A stretch of 64,000 bases of DNA from an uncultured Verrucomicrobiae bacterium (GTDB lineage: Bacteria; Verrucomicrobiota; Verrucomicrobiia; Limisphaerales; AAA164-E04): the NCBI GenBank assembly GCA_951813855.1, contig OX638380.1:4308518-4372517 (forward strand), written 5' to 3'. The position numbers were made by a program, and so were the translations under genes. The notes under the pieces were generated by a model, which had not been told where the DNA came from, did no database searches, and saw only the letters and a program-made list of their open reading frames with translations. Numbering within the stretch: position 1 is the stretch's first letter; every line of letters starts with the position of its first letter. Positions 7,582-41,339 of this stretch are shown here, one piece after another.

Positions 7582-7779
7582 TTCGGAATAGCGTAGACAG
7601 CAGCTGGAAGCGGTAATTCTTCCCTAAAAACTTCAATTAGGCCGGATACTGCGGATTTGAGCGAATTACCAGTCCTCGCCCCTGCTGGAAAATCCGTCGA
7701 GGACTCAATCTTTCAACACCTCCTAACCAATTACCATCATCGCCAATTAAAAAAACAAATTCACTGATTCGAATATTAA

Positions 7780-8664
7780 CTATTGCATGATTAATTGATC
7801 GCCATGTTTTAATTCATCAAGGTACCATATACCTGGGCCGAATGATTCTCTCGAATATAGTCGTTCGTATTCGTATAAAGACTCTTTTGAAATACTGAAT
7901 AAAAGTTGTTCAGTAATCGCCAAAGAGACATCGTAATCCATTAATTGTTCATTAGGCAAAAGAATATGAGGATTTCGCAAAGTGGTTGAAATAAGTTTGT
8001 ATCTTGAATGAATGTATTGTTCCCAAGTCGTCAACTGTGCAAAATAGGTATGTTTAGTATCTGGAACAAATTCATCGAGTTCCATACCACTTTTGTCAAA
8101 ACGATCTAATACTCTATAGTAATTGATTAAAGAGATGTATAACTCGGCCACTCGTCGGGTATGGTAACCGTAACCGTATTCGCTTAAAACATCCACAAGG
8201 TTATTAAAGGGAGGCGATTGCTGAAGTCTGCTATTAATTACACTCATTGTCCACATATAATTGTCAAGAGCAACATAATAAGGGTCAGAAAGGCTGTCGC
8301 GTCGATGTGTAATCGTTTCGTCAAAGACTATCGATGGATGGTATACGACACCACGCTCAGTAATAGGTTTTAAAGAAAACGTCTCATTTTCAGCTAATGA
8401 GTAAACATTGGTTTTAGAATTGTTTGCGGCATGGTCGAATCCGTTACTTGAATTATTCCTTTGAGCTGAATTAAAAACAATACTAGGCCGAAAAGGTTCG
8501 TTTGTATCGTAGTTAATATGATTGTTTGTATCAGCTAGTGATTCTTTATCGCTAGAATGTTTTAATCGCTGAGATAATGTGGATGAAGTATAACTATTTA
8601 AGGTTCGTAAACAAATAAAAACCAATAGTAAAACAGCCAACACACTGTATCCGATTTTTTTCAT
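7780..8664 (-). CDS. AT-rich orphan protein with N-terminal membrane anchor
   Basis: I do not recognise this 294-residue protein. It opens with MKKIGYSVLAVLLLVFICL, a signal peptide or uncleaved anchor, then a Ser/Asn/Thr-rich segment (to about residue 100) and a mainly helical C-terminal part rich in Tyr and Leu. That suggests a periplasmic or membrane-tethered protein (inference). Codon use is strikingly AT-rich (Asn AAT, Ile ATT/ATA, Ser AGT) against GC-rich neighbours, a sign of transfer. It stands alone between the IS1634 remnant and the first 204-bp repeat array, whose edge is 110 bp upstream. The reading frame is intact. Confidence 0.7.
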   Translation of the reverse strand: MKKIGYSVLAVLLLVFICLRTLNSYTSSTLSQRLKHSSDKESLADTNNHINYDTNEPFRPSIVFNSAQRNNSSNGFDHAANNSKTNVYSLAENETFSLKPITERGVVYHPSIVFDETITHRRDSLSDPYYVALDNYMWTMSVINSRLQQSPPFNNLVDVLSEYGYGYHTRRVAELYISLINYYRVLDRFDKSGMELDEFVPDTKHTYFAQLTTWEQYIHSRYKLISTTLRNPHILLPNEQLMDYDVSLAITEQLLFSISKESLYEYERLYSRESFGPGIWYLDELKHGDQLIMQ

Positions 8665-8774: not shown

Positions 8775-9426
8775 ATTCCTTCCTGGTCGCCGTCGAATTC
8801 ATCAGGCCACCCAGAGTAGCGGAAGCCGTTTGATGCCGCAAGCCCTTTCTTCGCCGTCTCGGCGGCGAAATTTTGGAGCGCAAACCACCAGATTCCGGCC
8901 ACGGCGAGCGAGCGTCCGCCCGGCGACCATCCCCAACGCAGGAGAACTCGCCGCGGACATCGTCGATGACGGATCGAGATTCCTTCCTGGTCGCCGTCGA
9001 ATTCATCAGGCCACCCAGAGTAGCGGAAGCCGTTTGATGCCGCAAGCCCTTTCTTCGCCGTCTCGGCGGCGAAATCCTGGAGCGCAAACCACCACCTTCC
9101 GGCCACGGCGAGCGAGCGTCCGCCCGGCGACCATCCCCAACGCAGGAGAACTCGCCGCGGACATCGTCGATGACGGATCGAGATTCCTTCCTGGTCGCCG
9201 TCGAATTCATCAGGCCACCCAGAGTAGCGGAAGCCGTTTGATGCCGCAAGCCCTTTCTTCGCCGTCTCGGCGGCGAAATCCTGGAGCGCAAACCACCACC
9301 TTCCGGCCACGGCGAGCGAGCGTCCGCCCGGCGACCATCCCCAACGCAGGAGAACTCGCCGCGGACATCGTCGATGACGGATCGAGATTCCTTCCTGGTC
9401 GCCGTCGAATTCATCAGGCCACCCAG
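8775..9426. repeat. 204-bp tandem repeat array 1 (three units plus 40 bp)
   Basis: Units start at 8775, 8979, 9183 and 9387 (each ATTCCTTCCTGG), exactly 204 bp apart; the last is cut after 40 bp. Units two and three look identical by eye; unit one differs in two short patches. Because 204 is a multiple of three, three frames stay open through the array: plus 8740-9432, minus 8689-9447 and minus 8759-9457. No known domain is recognised in any of them, so none is called as a gene. A second array of the same unit is at 38129-38710. Confidence 0.93.
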
Positions 9427-9453
9427 AATTGATGTGAAGCCTGTCACCCCCGA

Positions 9454-10704
9454 TCACAGAAAGCTAATCCGTAGCTGGCGTTCTTGAAGCCAAGGCACAG
9501 CGATGTCGGTTTCATCGTAGGCGGCATTGAGAAGGAACGGATTGTTTGCCCGTCGACCGATCCGGACTTCGATGCCGTCGTTGCCGATCATGATGTCCGC
9601 CGGTGCTTTGATAAAGTTCCGGAATAGCGTGCGGGATTTCGCGGTCTTCTTGTCATTGCCGATCCGAACGGCCAGCAGCCGATACAGGCAGCTAGCCATG
9701 AGAGTGAGTTGCAGGTCGAGATAAATCTTCATCGGCATGGCCGCGGACAGTGCCTCCATGTGGAAGAAGTCGATCGCGTCAGCGATGGCGTTCTCGATCA
9801 CCATTTACCGGGCATAGCGGTCGCCGAGTTGGCTGGCAGGCGTTTTCATCTGGTTAGTGAACAGCAAGGTGGGTTGTTTCTGACCCAAATCGCACACGGC
9901 GAGCTGCCGGATGTCTTCGGGATAGCCGGAGATCTGTACGCGTTGGTCCAGCACCCGCGGCGTGCGGTAGATACGTCCGACATTGTTTAAACGCACCAGT
10001 TTCCAGTCACTCTGCGGCAAGGTGGCAATAGCATCGAGCAGCGATTTAGAACGTTTGCGCCGAGTCAGAAAATCAATACCCATGGCGTTGATTCGTCCGA
10101 GATTAGCATGAGTCGTCAGCCTAGAATCGAAGACTAACTCTCTGGGCGGTCCGCCGTGGCATTGCTCCCAAAACTCGATGAAGCGGAGAATTTCGTCGTT
10201 CTGATCCTTCTTGAGGACTTGGGCGTTGGCGTAACAGAACAGGCGAGCATCGGCATCACGGGCCAAGAATGCCAGGATGCCTTTCTGCCTGGGCTTCACT
10301 TGGAGACATCGTGTTTTTCGATGGGCGTTTCTGGATCCTTGCCATGCCAGAGGATGGCAAGGATCCAGATCGAAGGAACCATCCCCTTCAAGGTCGGTTT
10401 CCAAGCTATTCAGTGCCCGGTGTCAGCGGTCCATGAGAACGAGGCACCGTTTCGGGTCGACGCGCCCGGAATACTCGGTCAGGGTGGAGTGTTTCGGCAT
10501 GACGTTCAATCCGGCGAACAAGGCGATTCCAAGATCGAGAATGTCGGTCATGACATGCGGCGGCCTGTCCAACCCCCAGAGTTTCAATGCTAACAGAGAC
10601 CGGAATGCATGACTCGCGGGGATCATCGCGCTACCCGGCATGTCGCTGTCATTAACAATTTGATCGAGATTGAGCCGGACGAGTTCGGGGACGAACAAAA
10701 ACAA
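9454..10704 (-). pseudogene. IS4-superfamily transposase remnant with two nonsense codons
   Basis: One frame from 10704 to 9454 reads as a DDE transposase: an N-terminal segment with HAFRSLLALKLWG, then KGILAFLARDADARLFCYA, GGPPRELVFDSRLTTHANLG (second catalytic-type D), and VIENAIADAIDFFHMEAL (candidate catalytic E). It is broken by TGA at 10423-10425 (MDR*HRALNSLETD, probably from TGG) and TAA at 9805-9807 (RYAR*MVIEN, probably from CAA). The region around the first catalytic aspartate is replaced by a 15-bp hairpin at 10331-10368. Total length matches a transposase of about 415 residues. It sits directly after a DruA-like fragment on the same strand. Confidence 0.72.
10331..10368. repeat. 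Perfect 15-bp inverted repeat inside the dead transposase
   Basis: CTGGATCCTTGCCAT (10331-10345) and ATGGCAAGGATCCAG (10354-10368) form a hairpin with an 8-base loop. It lies where the first catalytic motif should be, so it looks like a local inverted duplication that destroyed the motif. Confidence 0.85.
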
Positions 10705-10714
10705 ACCGCCGAAT

Positions 10715-10953
10715 TCAGTGTGCAGTCGTTGCGGTGCCAGATGGACGACACTTGAACACTCCGCTTTGCCAACCGGCTAAAGCCAACCACCGGCCTTGGT
10801 ACTCGGCAACATAACGCAGACCGCGTCCGGCAAAGCCTTTGAAACCCAAGCGATGGTTCTGATCCATCAGCGAATCCCAGCGTCTTCGCTCACTGCCCTT
10901 CACCTATCGAACGGTTACCAGCTTGAGGTTGATTTTGGCGTCCCTGAAGAACC
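10715..10953 (-). pseudogene. DruA-like (DUF4338) fragment
   Basis: The minus strand reads INLKLVTVR, a TAG at 10904-10906, then VKGSERRRWDSLMDQNHRLG followed by LRYVAEYQGRWLALAGWQSG. This is the central part of the DUF4338 family (now named after Druantia DruA), which is also found beside transposase genes. The usual continuation after the FKC segment is replaced by unrelated codons and a stop, and the N terminus is missing. With one internal stop and both ends lost, it cannot be functional. The contact with the transposase remnant downstream suggests a former IS accessory gene, not a defence system. Confidence 0.6.
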
Positions 10954-11161
10954 AATAACGACCAGAGAGTGAAAAAGCCAGCTTTATGTTCCCATCTCGA
11001 AGGCGATAAAGTTTCGTCTCTACGGTGAAGGGAAAAAGCGAAATATGGCCCAAAATCGGTGACATTGGCCTCTAGCGATTAGCGTGAAAAAATCCTGTCG
11101 AACCGGGACTTGCCGCTTTACCTGATCGGATTCGCCGGTTAGATTGTCGCCCCTAAAACTG

Positions 11162-36213: not shown

Positions 36214-36220
36214 GGAAAAA
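36214..36220. repeat. Possible target-site duplication, left
   Basis: GGAAAAA immediately precedes the left 113-bp inverted repeat and is repeated at 41084-41090 immediately after the right one. Only 7 bp and A-rich, so a modest claim. Confidence 0.6.
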
Positions 36221-36333
36221 GGTAACTATTCAGGTATCGAAAAAAGTCAGCAATTCCCACTGAAGACAGATCAGCTTGTGTCCCATTTGGGGCCTCAAGG
36301 AATCAACTCCTACACCACCAAATGGGACACAAG
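36221..36333 (+). repeat. Terminal inverted repeat of the 4.86-kb element, left, with hairpin
   Basis: Layout: GGTAACTATTCAGG at the outer edge (36221-36234), the IS-type 18-mer at 36248-36265, and a hairpin with perfect 16-bp arms at 36275-36290 and 36318-36333 (CTTGTGTCCCATTTGG and its complement) around a 27-base loop. Confidence 0.9.
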
Positions 36334-37196
36334 CCGCCTTCGCCACGATTATTTCGACGTTGAATTCCTCCGTCCCGAAACCACGGCTACGTGTTTCGGA
36401 GTCGATTCAAAGTTGGCCGAATATCGCGGAGACGACTTATCAAATCACCGGCAGTCATTTTGGCGGCGAGGCTTGGATACCTCAAAGAATTGGTGGTTAG
36501 CAGACGCGCCCTTTTATCGAGAGTGATGGTACCGATTCCGCTCGAAGATTAAAACTGTCGTTCAGTTAGTCAGAGGTTTGAGGCGGGTATTGAGAGTTTC
36601 CTCAGGGTGAGTCGCGTATTGACAATTGGACGGCGGAAAAAGGTTCAAGGCATTATTCGGTTCTGACGATCGAGTTGGTGGGGTTGGATAGGTAGGCCGA
36701 GTTGCGGGGTAAATGGCCGACCTGCACGCGACAGCGATCTTCGTCATAGGTAAAATCACGCGCGTAATGGAGTCGATTCTCGAGTCCAAGGGTTAAGGAC
36801 GGAGCGAGCAGCTTTTCAGGTTTGGTTGCTTCAGCAATTGAGGAGGTGAGGCAATAAGCGACCCCACGTCTGGTTTCGTTCGTCTTCAGAATGGGACGGT
36901 TGCGTTCGATGCGAATGACTTGCCAGCGACCGTAGAACTCGCAAAAACCGGCTCACTCGGGACCGGAGATAACGAGGGAATGACAGCGGCGGATTTCGAG
37001 GCCTTCGACCTAGCATCCATAATGGTCAGTAGACGATGGGGAGGAAAAAATCGACCAAGAGATTGGCGAGCCGTTATCTTGGCATATCCATCGGGTGCAA
37101 TTTTCAATGGCTGTCGAGGTAGCCTTCGAAAATTGCTGCTCAGTCAACTAAGATGGGATGAATATACGTCAGTTTCGCCTGCCCTCGTATTTGTTC
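36334..37196. other. 860-bp stretch within the element, nothing recognised
   Basis: Lower GC than the flanks and no supported gene. Two frames cross the hairpin, but neither has family motifs. Confidence 0.5.
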
Positions 37197-37340
37197 CTAG
37201 TTGACGGTGGCTCTGATGGTGGTGGTGGCGGCGGTGGCGGCGGTTTGAACATGGCTGACAATTCCGCTAGCGATTTCCCCTTGAATCTCGGGTCTTTCGC
37301 TGCCTGTTTCGCTGGAGACAAGACTGGTTCTTTGGCCATT
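37197..37340 (-). CDS. Small 47-residue protein coupled to the DUF6338-like gene
   Basis: ATG at 37340, stop at 37199-37197, product MAKEPVFVSSETGSERPEIQ followed by an Ala/Thr-rich tail (AATAATTTI). It has the best ribosome binding site in the neighbourhood: AAGGAG at 37356-37351, 10 bp before the ATG and overlapping the last codons (Lys-Glu-stop) of the gene upstream. That arrangement suggests translational coupling. No family recognised. It is too short to be secure by itself; the main support is the start signal. Confidence 0.45.
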   Translation of the reverse strand, partial: NGQRTSLVSSETGSERPEIQGEIASGIVSHVQTAATAATTTIRATVN

Positions 37341-37346
37341 CGACAA

Positions 37347-37964
37347 TTACTCCTTCATTTTTTCGTTTTTAATCGACTGAAAAGGCAGAAATTCTACCAT
37401 GATGACTTCTGCTGCTGGCACAAGCACCGCAGACGCTCCTGACGGAGCTGTCTGCCCGTTACTATAGTCTAACCATTCGATTTCTGCCATTCGGAAATGA
37501 CCGGTCGTGGAGTCGCTTGGCCATTCTTCTGCAAAGCCATAGAGACGACGATTTCCTTGCAAGTGCAGCACTAAGAAAGAGTTCGATCCGTAGCGGATGA
37601 AAGTTGAGTACCATTCGGAAGGATACGAATTTTCTCGAGACATGCCTGCCCATCGAAAAAATCGATGCAGAACATCTCTATTGACGATGAGAGTAACGAA
37701 TAGACCAAGTAGAACAGCAATGACAATCGAAAAGGTAGATGCGTGGGGGTGATTTAAGGCATCCTTAAATTCTGCTTCGTTAAAAATCGAAATACTAAAT
37801 TGGGTAAGCTTCTGGCAAATCAGGGTGAAAATAAGTGCCTGAACAATGAGACTGAGGGAGCTGGGGGTTGGGCGCGACGTCAGATTATAGACAATTGCCG
37901 CGGATATGAAACCCGGAAGAAGAAAGGTTAGGATTCCTACGACTTCCCCTGAAGCCCAATTCAC
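37347..37964 (-). CDS. DUF6338-like membrane protein, AT-rich cargo gene
   Basis: A 205-residue protein with at least three membrane segments (GILTFLLPGFISAAIVY; LSLIVQALIFTLICQKL; FSIVIAVLLGLFVTLIV) and a cytoplasmic C-terminal domain with NRRLYGFAEEWPSDSTTGHF and VPAAEVIMVEFL. The xRRLYGxxEEWP stretch is what I associate with DUF6338; the match is from memory and of moderate strength. Function unknown. It is more AT-rich than the chromosomal genes, lies 165 bp downstream of a 204-bp repeat array, and is followed by a coupled small ORF. Being the only intact larger gene inside the inverted-repeat element, it is the candidate cargo. Confidence 0.65.
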   Translation of the reverse strand: MNWASGEVVGILTFLLPGFISAAIVYNLTSRPTPSSLSLIVQALIFTLICQKLTQFSISIFNEAEFKDALNHPHASTFSIVIAVLLGLFVTLIVNRDVLHRFFRWAGMSRENSYPSEWYSTFIRYGSNSFLVLHLQGNRRLYGFAEEWPSDSTTGHFRMAEIEWLDYSNGQTAPSGASAVLVPAAEVIMVEFLPFQSIKNEKMKE

Positions 37965-38128
37965 AATGAAAACCCGTCAATGATCATTGACTCGGGTGTA
38001 ATTGATTAGCGGGTTTTGTCGTTGGCTCAATCAGTGGCAAAACAATGGACGGAGGAACACGCCTAGGTAATCGTGCAGCCAATACCTCGGTGTCCGCACC
38101 ATAGACAAATGGAAACCAAGTCAAGTCG

Positions 38129-38710
38129 CCCAGAGTAGCGGAAGCCGTTTGATTCCGCAGGCCCTTTCTTTGCCGTCTCAGCGGCGAAATCCTGGAGCGC
38201 AAACCACCAGCTTCCGGCCACGGCGAGCGAGCTTCCGCCCGGCGACCATCGCCAACGAAGGAGAACTCGCCGCGGACATCGTCGATGACGGATCGAGATT
38301 CCTTCCTGGTCGCCGTCGAATTCATCAGGCCACCCAAGGTAGCGGAAGCCGTTTGATTCCGCAAGACCTTTCTTCGCCGTCTCAGCGGCGAAATCCTGGA
38401 GCGTGAACCACCAGTTCCCGGCCACGGCGAGCGAGCGTCCGCCCGGCGACCATCCTCAACGCAGGAGAACTCGCCGCGGACATCGTCGATGACGGATCGG
38501 GATTCTATCCTGGTCGCCGTCAAATTCATCAGGCCACCCAAGGTAGCGGAAGCCGTTTGATTCCGCAAGACCTTTCTTCGCCGTCTCGGCGGCGAAATCC
38601 TGGAGCGCAAACCATCATCTTCCGGCCACGGCGAGCGAGCGTCCGCCCGGCGACCATCGCCAACGAAGGAGAACTCGCCGAGGACATCGTCGATGACGGA
38701 TCGAGATTCC
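38129..38710. repeat. 204-bp tandem repeat array 2
   Basis: The same unit as at 8775-9426. Complete units at 38298-38501 and 38502-38705, a partial one at 38129-38297 that begins at unit position 36, and 5 bp of a further unit. The copies differ by scattered substitutions, several of them third-position-like. Three frames again remain open across much of it. Its right edge abuts the IS21 end. Confidence 0.92.
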
Positions 38711-39070
38711 ATTCCAGCGCGTCAATTACTTTGCGACACAGCGACAATTACAATGCGACACTTGGGGAACGAGGCGTAAGATTCATTGCATCGGTCGTGG
38801 GGGGCATTCTTCCGGACGGGGTTGAGACGGTTAAGCGGAAAGAGAGAGAGTCGATCTGCTGGAGGTCAAGGGAAGCGACGAGCATCCCGCGAAGGGGTTC
38901 GACGGTTCAAGAAGGGATCGGCGTCGTGACGCAACGAGCGGCCTTCGAGGGCGGGCGTCACCCGTCGAACCTTGCTTTGCTGGTTCGGCGACTTCGGCGG
39001 CCGGCATCCGGATTCTCTTTCTCGTAGGCTGTTGACTCCCTGAGCGGTGGCGACGGGAACGAGACCGCGG

Positions 39071-39946
39071 TCAAGTCGAGGATGGGGATTCCCGAGCCGT
39101 GGGAGTGGCTGGTGAAGAGTCGGTTGTGGCGGGAAGGTTGACGCTGTGAGCCGGCTCGGCAGTGCCGTCGGCCCGGTGATGTTCCCAAGCGGTGCGGCAC
39201 CGATAGCTTTGGGTGTTGATCTCGAAGATGGTGGCGTGGTGTACGAGTCGATCGACCGCGGCGGCGGCGGTGGCTTGGTCGGGAAAGATTCGATCCCATT
39301 GGGCAAAGGGCAGATTGGCGGTGAGGAGGATGGAGCGTTGTTCGTGGCGATCGGAGATCAGTTCGAAGAGGACGGCGCTTTCTTCCCGATCGCGGTTGAC
39401 GCAGGCGAAATCGTCAAGGATGAGGAGGTGGAATTTATGGAGACGTGCGAGCAGTCCCTCGAGATCGAGATGGCGTTGGGCGACCTGCAGTTTCTGGACG
39501 AGGCTGGAGGTTCCGGTGAAGAGCGCCTTGAGGCCCTGGCGCCCGAGGGAGAGGCCGATGGCGGAGGCGAGGTGGCTCTTGCCGACGCCGGGGGGCCCGA
39601 AGATGAGGAGGTTGGCTCCCTTGCGGATCCAGCTGTCTTCGGAGGCGAAGGCCTGACCGCGTGCTTGGGGCGGGGATGGGATGAGGCTAAAATCGAAGCC
39701 TTCGAGGTTCTTGCCGGGGAGGAGTTTGGCCTGCCGGGTATGTCGGTCGATGCGGCGGTTGTCCCTTTCGGTCAATTCGAGTTCGGCGAGGGAGAAGAGA
39801 TATTTTGACGCCGGCCAACCCTCCTTGTCGGCGCGTTGAGCCAGGATCCGCCACTCGGCCTCGATGGAGGGCAATCGCAGCTCGGAGAGCATGAGAGAAA
39901 GTCGGTCGGGATCGAAGGCTTGTGGCGGAGTGGAGCGGATGGTCAT
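39071..39946 (-). CDS. istB: IS21 helper ATPase IstB
   Basis: A 291-residue AAA+ ATPase that selects target DNA and activates the IstA transposase. Walker A is FGPPGVGKSHLASAIG (~residues 116-131), Walker B is LLILDDFACV (~175), and the C terminus has SILLTANLPFAQWDRIFPD. The usual IstB length is about 250-260, so the C-terminal tail (Ser/Pro-rich after ~residue 260) is longer than normal, which suggests a changed stop. Its ATG overlaps the istA stop as ATGA. The frame is intact, but without a working IstA it should be inert. Confidence 0.87.
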   Translation of the reverse strand: MTIRSTPPQAFDPDRLSLMLSELRLPSIEAEWRILAQRADKEGWPASKYLFSLAELELTERDNRRIDRHTRQAKLLPGKNLEGFDFSLIPSPPQARGQAFASEDSWIRKGANLLIFGPPGVGKSHLASAIGLSLGRQGLKALFTGTSSLVQKLQVAQRHLDLEGLLARLHKFHLLILDDFACVNRDREESAVLFELISDRHEQRSILLTANLPFAQWDRIFPDQATAAAAVDRLVHHATIFEINTQSYRCRTAWEHHRADGTAEPAHSVNLPATTDSSPATPTARESPSST

Positions 39947-40980
39947 GGCGAAAGGCGGTTACCGAGCAGATTGGAGTACTGACCGAGGTTACCCACGGCG
40001 ACGTCTTGCCGAGGAAGGGAAGGCTCCTGGAACGCAAAGCGTGTTCTCAGGGACTCGACATCGGGGAGGGAGCCGGTCCGGAGCGCTGCTTCGATGGCGT
40101 CGGCGATTTCCGCTTCGCAGCCGTTTTCGTGGGCCAAGGCAAGGAACTCGACGGTGAGACGGCACGCTTGTTTTTCGCTCACGGATTCCTTCACTTGATC
40201 GAAGAAGTGGCGATAGGCCTCTCGAGGAAAGAGCTCATTGCGGTAGGTCAGACGTGCCAGAGCCATGGGTTGGCGCTTCAGGGACTGGATGACGTGCCGA
40301 TAATCGATGACGTTGGGACGGTGAGTCCGATGTCCGCGAGGCAGGGTTTCGATCTTCGTCGCTCCCTGGAAGAGTTCGATCCGGTCATCGAAGATGCGAG
40401 CCTTGAGTCGGTAGCTGATGAGTCGCGAAGGCACTGAGTCGTCAACCTTTCGAATGCGGCAGCCGGCGGTGCTGGTCACCGTGACCATGACCTCTTCGCA
40501 GTCGCAAGGATTCGACGGCGGCAGCGGGTTCAGCTGGCCCCGTTCGGTCTCGATGTCCTTCGCCATCCTGACGTTTTCACGAGCGACGATATCCGCGACG
40601 AAAGTTCGGTAGGCGTCCAGGCACTCGAACTCCCGGGATCCTCGGAGTTCCAGCTCACCTCGAACCCGGTCCTTGAGATGACGGTGGGCGTTTTCGATGG
40701 CGCCGTTCTCGTGGCCCACGCCCCGGTTGTTGCGAGATGGTTTCATCCCGTAGGGTTCGCACCGGGCTTTGACGCGTCCGGTCAAGTCCTCCGCTACGTC
40801 CTGGGCCAGATTGCGGAAGGCAACGGAGAGACGGTCGGTTCAGAGCTCGTGGGGGACTCCGCCCAGTTCGGCGAAGGCACCCTGAATTCCCTCGGCCAAG
40901 GCGGTGAAGGACTCGCCGTTAATGACCACGGAGACGTATCGGTAGCACGACCATGGGAGGCGAAAGTGGGCTTGTGTCCC
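39943..40980 (-). pseudogene. istA: IS21 transposase IstA, 5'-truncated with a stop codon
   Basis: The frame reads HFRLPWSCYRYVSVVINGES, then ALAEGIQGAFAELGGVPHEL, a TGA at 40840-40842, and TDRLSVAFRN. It goes on with RGVGHENGAIENAHRHLKDR (the catalytic-type E region of the DDE integrase core) to a normal C-terminal domain. The family usually has arginine at the stop (HELRTDRLS), so CGA to TGA explains it. The first half, with the HTH and first catalytic Asp, is missing because homology ends at the 16-bp junction sequence (40971-40986). A restart after the stop would yield a 280-residue fragment. Certainly non-functional as a transposase. Confidence 0.82.
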
Positions 40981-41083
40981 ATTTGGTGGTGTAGGAGTTG
41001 ATTCCTAGAGGCCCCAAATGGGACACAAGTTGATCTGTCTTCAGTGGGAATTGCTGACTTTTTTCGATACCTGAATAGTTACC
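40971..41083 (-). repeat. Terminal inverted repeat of the 4.86-kb element, right, with hairpin
   Basis: Near-perfect inverse of 36221-36333 (two differences). Hairpin arms at 40971-40986 and 41014-41029, IS-type 18-mer at 41039-41056, outer edge ending CCTGAATAGTTACC at 41083. Confidence 0.9.
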
Positions 41084-41090
41084 GGAAAAA
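41084..41090. repeat. Possible target-site duplication, right
   Basis: GGAAAAA, identical to 36214-36220 and in the mirror position with respect to the element. Confidence 0.6.
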
Positions 41091-41339
41091 GACGCATTCG
41101 CAATCGAATGTCCCGGATTAATCGAGCTCCGCCGCGCTTGCGTCCCGTCGGCGTAGCAGTGAGGCCGCCGGGGATCGAAAGATTTCGAACGGCCGACCGG
41201 TTCCAAGGTCTCTTCCCAGCGACGATCACAGTTTTTGTTCGGGGTGAACGCGCTCTGGATATGTTTGAGTTCCTTCTTGGACAGTCCCGCCGGGGCCGGT
41301 TGTCATTAACACGCTGCGATCAGGTGACGTCCCGTTAAC

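Follow-up and report, generated by a model that had tools for sequence, protein, structure and literature searches.

Results

Two 204-bp arrays and their neighboring genes

The window analyzed here, a 64,000-nucleotide stretch that corresponds to positions 4308518–4372517 of a 4.887-Mb single contig, contains two tandem arrays with a 204-bp unit. TRF places array 1 at 8775–9427 (3.2 copies, 99% matches) and array 2 at 38135–38715 (2.8 copies, 92%), and an HMM profile (nhmmer) extends the right limit of array 1 to about 9441 and the start of array 2 to about 38121. Both programs thus bear out the two arrays that a preliminary description of this DNA had located next to minus-strand genes, and chance is excluded. 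On the low-coordinate side of each array is a minus-strand gene that is richer in AT, with the array upstream of it in the orientation claimed and at a distance of ∼110 bp (orphan gene) or ∼160–165 bp (DUF6338 gene; Table 1). The latter, originally read as DUF6338-like, encodes a true DUF6338 protein of 205 residues that matches PF19865 above the curated cut-off (E = 7.7e-9, 35.9 bits versus 26.5, profile positions 7–200); no DUF6338 match was found in 29 other genomes of the order. Distant homologs of the orphan product (26–30%) are present in one genome of the same genus. The suggestion that both products are N-terminal membrane proteins fits a hydrophobic start in each, as read by eye from the translations.

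Table 1. Features around the two arrays (window coordinates)
Feature	Position	Strand	Remarks
AT-rich orphan gene	7780–8664	−	294 aa; GC 0.355; single copy; no Pfam match
Array 1	8775–9441	+	Fragment of 3.2 units; leader, tail, and IS66 ends all absent
Multi-copy IS	9428–10745	−	Broken transposase frame; terminal ∼25 bp missing at junction with array 1
8-bp duplication GGAAAAAG	36214–36221		Right copy at 41084–41091, after one extra C
IS66-type left end	36222–36344	+	Inverted repeat partner at 40959–41082
Remnant of another repeat family	36337–37002		6 other genome copies, 77% identity
DUF6338 gene (PF19865)	37347–37964	−	GC 0.456; single copy
Module leader (CTAGGTAATCGTGCAGCC...)	38063–38120	+	Common to IS66-embedded arrays and locus 942241
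Array 2	38121–38715	+	2.8 204-bp units; right side cut by IS21; TRF and nhmmer
IS21-family insertion	38716–40958	−	istB at 39071–39946, istA remnant; truncated on the right by the IS66-type end
IS66-type right end	40959–41082	−	Inverted repeat of the left end (∼125 bp, 96% identity)

The two arrays had also been credited with shared edges at ATTCC and CCCAG. These positions are right for both arrays, but they fall on opposite sides: array 1 begins with ATTCC and finishes with CCCAGA, whereas array 2 begins with CCCAG and finishes with ATTCC. Common recombination edges of an array-plus-cargo cassette were not found in the window, and the idea of a single cassette boundary is not borne out, since the four edges have unrelated causes. 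The left edge of array 1 is a junction with unique DNA and on its right it meets an IS from which the last ∼25 bp are missing, as a comparison of the IS copies established; the left edge of array 2 is the normal start of the repeat module described below, and its right edge is an IS21 insertion.

Array 2 and the DUF6338 gene lie together inside a 4.86-kb element (36222–41082). The IS21 insertion in this element gives an IstB_IS21 Pfam match with E = 6.7e-59 (at least 15 IS21 copies are present genome-wide), and the IS66 DDE transposase is absent. In this mosaic, IS66-ended element, array 2 is a module accompanied by the DUF6338 gene and an IS21 copy. No IS66 end was found near array 1, which is a detached fragment adjoining an unrelated AT-rich gene. 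To the right of array 1, the broken IS is adjoined by a 355-bp repeat (10743–11097) with at least 30 genome copies of 91–95% identity, and to the left of the orphan gene, a 107-bp stretch (7590–7697), probably an IS end, recurs at six other places (92–97%).

Array loci across the genome

A profile search found the 204-bp unit at 12 loci in the 4.887-Mb genome, and at most of them the array sits within an IS66-family element. At five of these (930149, 1128353, 1356632, 1977556, and 4415424, referred to here as canonical), the array has a fixed left edge at unit position 32, a fixed right edge at position 188, and a length of 360–1372 bp; locus 1281032 shares the canonical left edge, and the remaining loci are truncated or diverged. 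The flanks of canonical arrays are conserved as well, with a 183-bp leader on the left that starts GTAACTATTCAGGTACCGAAAAAAG and a tail of at least 84 bp on the right, so that the module has an invariant leader and tail and, between them, n units plus 157 bp. In a tree of the units, the first units of six IS66 arrays form one cluster, indicating that arrays spread as wholes and changed afterward.

Some loci stand apart. At 1814212 (L036:9913-10150), a lone unit with ∼75% identity, possibly an old relative of the array unit, lies in DNA of normal GC content and is adjoined by a transposase-like ORF (8957–9778 in L036; IS1595-like by eye). At 942241–942450 (L032:1742-1950), a single-unit array shares its leader context with window array 2, with GTAATTGATNAGCGGGTTT on both sides. 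Elsewhere, an IS66-array element is inserted between two AT-rich tandem paralogs (L040:8352-9131 and L040:13678-14460; 259 and 260 aa, with a signal-peptide-like start), both co-oriented with the element.

The carrier element

To the right of the array lies a stretch of ∼2.35 kb that is >99% identical between two loci and ∼95% identical to a third, and that ends in ...CCTGAATAGTTAC. It encodes an IS66 transposase (PF03050, E = 8.6e-45; zf-IS66, E = 3.7e-7; both for the 1356632 element), the frame of which is open over 632 aa at 1356632. The IS66 elements have terminal inverted repeats (GTAACTATTCAGG.../...CCTGAATAGTTAC; 83 bp at 94% in 930149). In 930149 and 1977556 the transposase is missing, and an inverted copy of the left end closes the element after 180 bp. 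The 930149 element, 1130 bp long with inverted ends and an 8-bp duplication, has the makeup of a short non-autonomous MITE; 1977556 resembles it, but no matching duplication was found there. As in a MITE with a minisatellite, tandem repeats of varying number are found between a conserved leader and a conserved tail.

The 8-bp duplications read CATTTTAG at 1128353, CGTAAGTC at 1356632, AAATCTTG at 4415424, and GTGCTCTG at 930149. Two further copies, 61934 and 2960110, match the array elements in their ends and transposase region and have duplications of TAGTTTTC and CCATTTTG, respectively, but contain no array and measure about 2.2–2.3 kb. The duplications are exact in six elements and shifted by 1 nt in the window element. 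Published IS66 elements (ISPpa5a and ISPpa7) likewise generate 8-bp repeats (PMC3281130).

Comparison with the array-less copies exposes the empty site. With junctions marked by ^, these read ...CCATG(T/G)ACTTTC^GGCAGATTGGG..., also given as ...GGACTTTC^GGCAGATTGG..., and 4415424 reads ...CCATGGACTTTC^CTAGGTAATCG...array...AAAAATCG^CTTGTGTCCC...CCATGGACTTTC^GGCAGATTGGG.... Filled copies thus contain the module plus a 69-bp repeat at the point where the array-less copies are empty; the module therefore arrived together with this repeat, which now lies on both of its sides. The 69-bp repeat is also present, whole or in part, at about two dozen other places in the genome, and an array-less IS66 would most simply have gained the module by recombination through it. 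A dispersed, often palindromic repeat of ∼70–160 bp (TTGTGTCCCATTTGG...CCAAATGGGACACAA) occurs at two dozen or more places besides the IS66 ends; its sites in the window are 36276–36332 and 40972–41028.

Several things can be read directly from the DNA: the module lies inside IS66 ends, 8-bp duplications are present, full-length copies encode the transposase, sister copies exist that have no array, and the array edges are fixed. We consider it very likely that the arrays are an internal minisatellite module of a lineage-specific IS66 transposon and its shortened, non-autonomous derivatives, with array 2 in a mosaic IS66-ended element, array 1 a fragment, and the AT-rich neighbors marking tolerated sites. 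The IS66 transposase would then move both full-length and shortened copies, the latter in trans, and after each jump, unequal exchange or slippage would change the repeat number. Less easily accommodated are the missing duplication at 1977556, the one-base offset of GGAAAAAG on the right side of the window element, and the lack of any IS66 end at array 1.

AT-rich flanks: cargo or tolerated sites

The preliminary description had proposed an array-plus-cargo cassette, a reading in which each array would form the boundary of, or the recombination platform for, a unit with a foreign, AT-rich gene downstream. Part of this holds, insofar as the arrays are mobile and array 2 shares a single IS66-ended, duplication-flanked element with the DUF6338 gene, but the general rule fails: the arrays at 1281032, 1814212, and 2117270 adjoin GC-rich sequence and that at 930149 adjoins a nuoM-like gene, which is the kind of counterexample that the description itself had named. 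At intact array elements, the left gene lies outside the inverted ends (it is between them only at array 2), and the left-neighbor ORFs are different proteins at each locus; neither of the two window genes has a second copy in the genome, and the array edges in the window are IS scars.

Base composition also speaks for a foreign cargo. Relative to 1-kb windows from 18 sampled 20-kb stretches (a 360-kb genome sample), of which 3.4% have a GC content <0.42 and 7% a GC content <0.46, the left flank is <0.46 at 5 of 7 intact array insertions. The shift toward AT gives p = 0.0015 for left and p = 0.007 for right array flanks. It is also seen at insertions that have no array, with p = 0.001 (about 1e-3) for array-less IS66 flanks and p = 5e-5 for IS21 flanks, 28% of which are <0.46; it should be noted that all of these p values are rough, given overlapping background windows and small sets. 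Since flanks are AT-rich with or without arrays, AT-richness characterizes IS insertion sites in this genome, and the AT-rich neighbors are sites where IS elements are tolerated rather than array-dependent cargo. A cassette of the proposed kind is, in our judgment, decidedly improbable.

Possible functions of the array

A coding role is suggested by the period (204 = 3 × 68), by frame −1, in which 10 of 12 arrays contain no stop and 1 stop-creating change is seen versus 4.8 expected, and by several 3-bp deletions; the minus strand would then encode 68-residue repeats. When substitutions in all six frames were compared with a base-matched null, however, synonymous changes in frame −1 were at the random level (44 versus 45.2 ± 4.4 expected), and frame −2, which has a synonymous excess (52 versus 41.2 ± 4.0), is broken by stops. 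None of the six frames combines openness with a synonymous excess, and the product is Arg/Ser-rich, with no Pfam match above threshold, so that we regard a protein-coding array as very unlikely. A structured RNA, or a unit encoding a known repeat-RNA family, is hardly credible: although a G+C-rich hairpin (TTCGCCG-TCTC-GGCGGCGAA) can be read from the sequence in every unit, there is no Rfam match, the folding of the unit is at shuffle level (z = −0.1), and the consensus fold of the unit alignment gives z values of −0.85 and −1.4. The coding and RNA-structure tests thus support no function of the array itself, and it is most likely a passive passenger, altered by unequal exchange.

Some features fit a passive module poorly, namely, the open frame −1 and the orientation of the first plausible gene on the left, which is directed away from the array at all 7 IS66-array insertions but toward the element at both array-less ones. 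The latter would be expected of a mobile upstream regulator, i.e., if array elements were kept upstream of, and co-oriented with, a gene whose transcription they supply or alter, and the ends of BrickBuilt elements drive lacZ in E. coli (PMC4596501). Against this, the counts are small and the genes were taken as ORFs; the nearest ORF at 1281032 is doubtful, the gene at 2106992 is perhaps cut by the element, and that at 930149 is 1.1 kb away. Distances to the gene range from 9 bp to 1.1 kb, and a consensus scan of 350 bp gave one promoter-like and one terminator-like site, near the shuffle average. A regulator of this kind is unlikely, and with numbers too small for any claim of function from gene orientation, the same applies to its fuller form, in which the 204-bp array would make the IS66 an oriented mobile upstream region, copies being retained upstream of a co-oriented, AT-rich gene, often for a secreted or membrane protein, and altering its expression in a copy-number-dependent manner.

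Discussion

The closest known case is BrickBuilt of Porphyromonas gingivalis, a minisatellite between a leader and a tail in a MITE, with 19 dispersed copies in one species only (PMC4596501), and the array element resembles it in anatomy: both have a tandem array of variable copy number, enclosed by a conserved leader and tail and by inverted ends, both occur as numerous dispersed copies, with the leader or tail missing from some, and neither has a match outside the species. The two differ in the unit (204 bp here versus 23 bp in BrickBuilt and 41 bp in the 464/PgRS elements discussed alongside it; PMC4596501), in that full-length partners here combine the array with an IS66 transposase, and in the ends, which here are inverted repeats of ∼83–125 bp, with array-less sister copies that reveal the empty site. 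With ISPpa5a and ISPpa7 of the IS66 family (PMC3281130) the elements described here share the DDE_Tnp_IS66 and zf-IS66 domains, the inverted ends, and the 8-bp target duplication; unlike them, they contain a repeat module of 0.5–1.5 kb with no detected coding function and have ends that begin with GTAACTATTC. The foldback transposon Tetris of Drosophila virilis, reported as a DNA transposon giving building blocks of a satellite DNA (PMC4079207), differs in being eukaryotic.

In 96 other genomes the array was not found, with only two matches of ∼30 bp, and a DNA-level search for relatives of the IS66 element in 29 other genomes gave nothing beyond short matches. The exact unit pattern was likewise not found in public genome and viral contig collections, from which records of this genome itself are possibly left out, and a scan of public genome contigs with the transposase protein, which reaches close relatives only, gave no confirmed relative. 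As far as these searches go, the array appears to be lineage-specific.

Few bacterial mobile elements have been documented that carry a tandem array and spread it. In the present single-contig genome, autonomous, shortened, and array-less versions are found side by side, so that gain of the module, its spread, and the later change in repeat number can be read directly. More generally, the adjacency of a gene and an array in a repeat-rich genome can stem from nested insertions and not from cargo.
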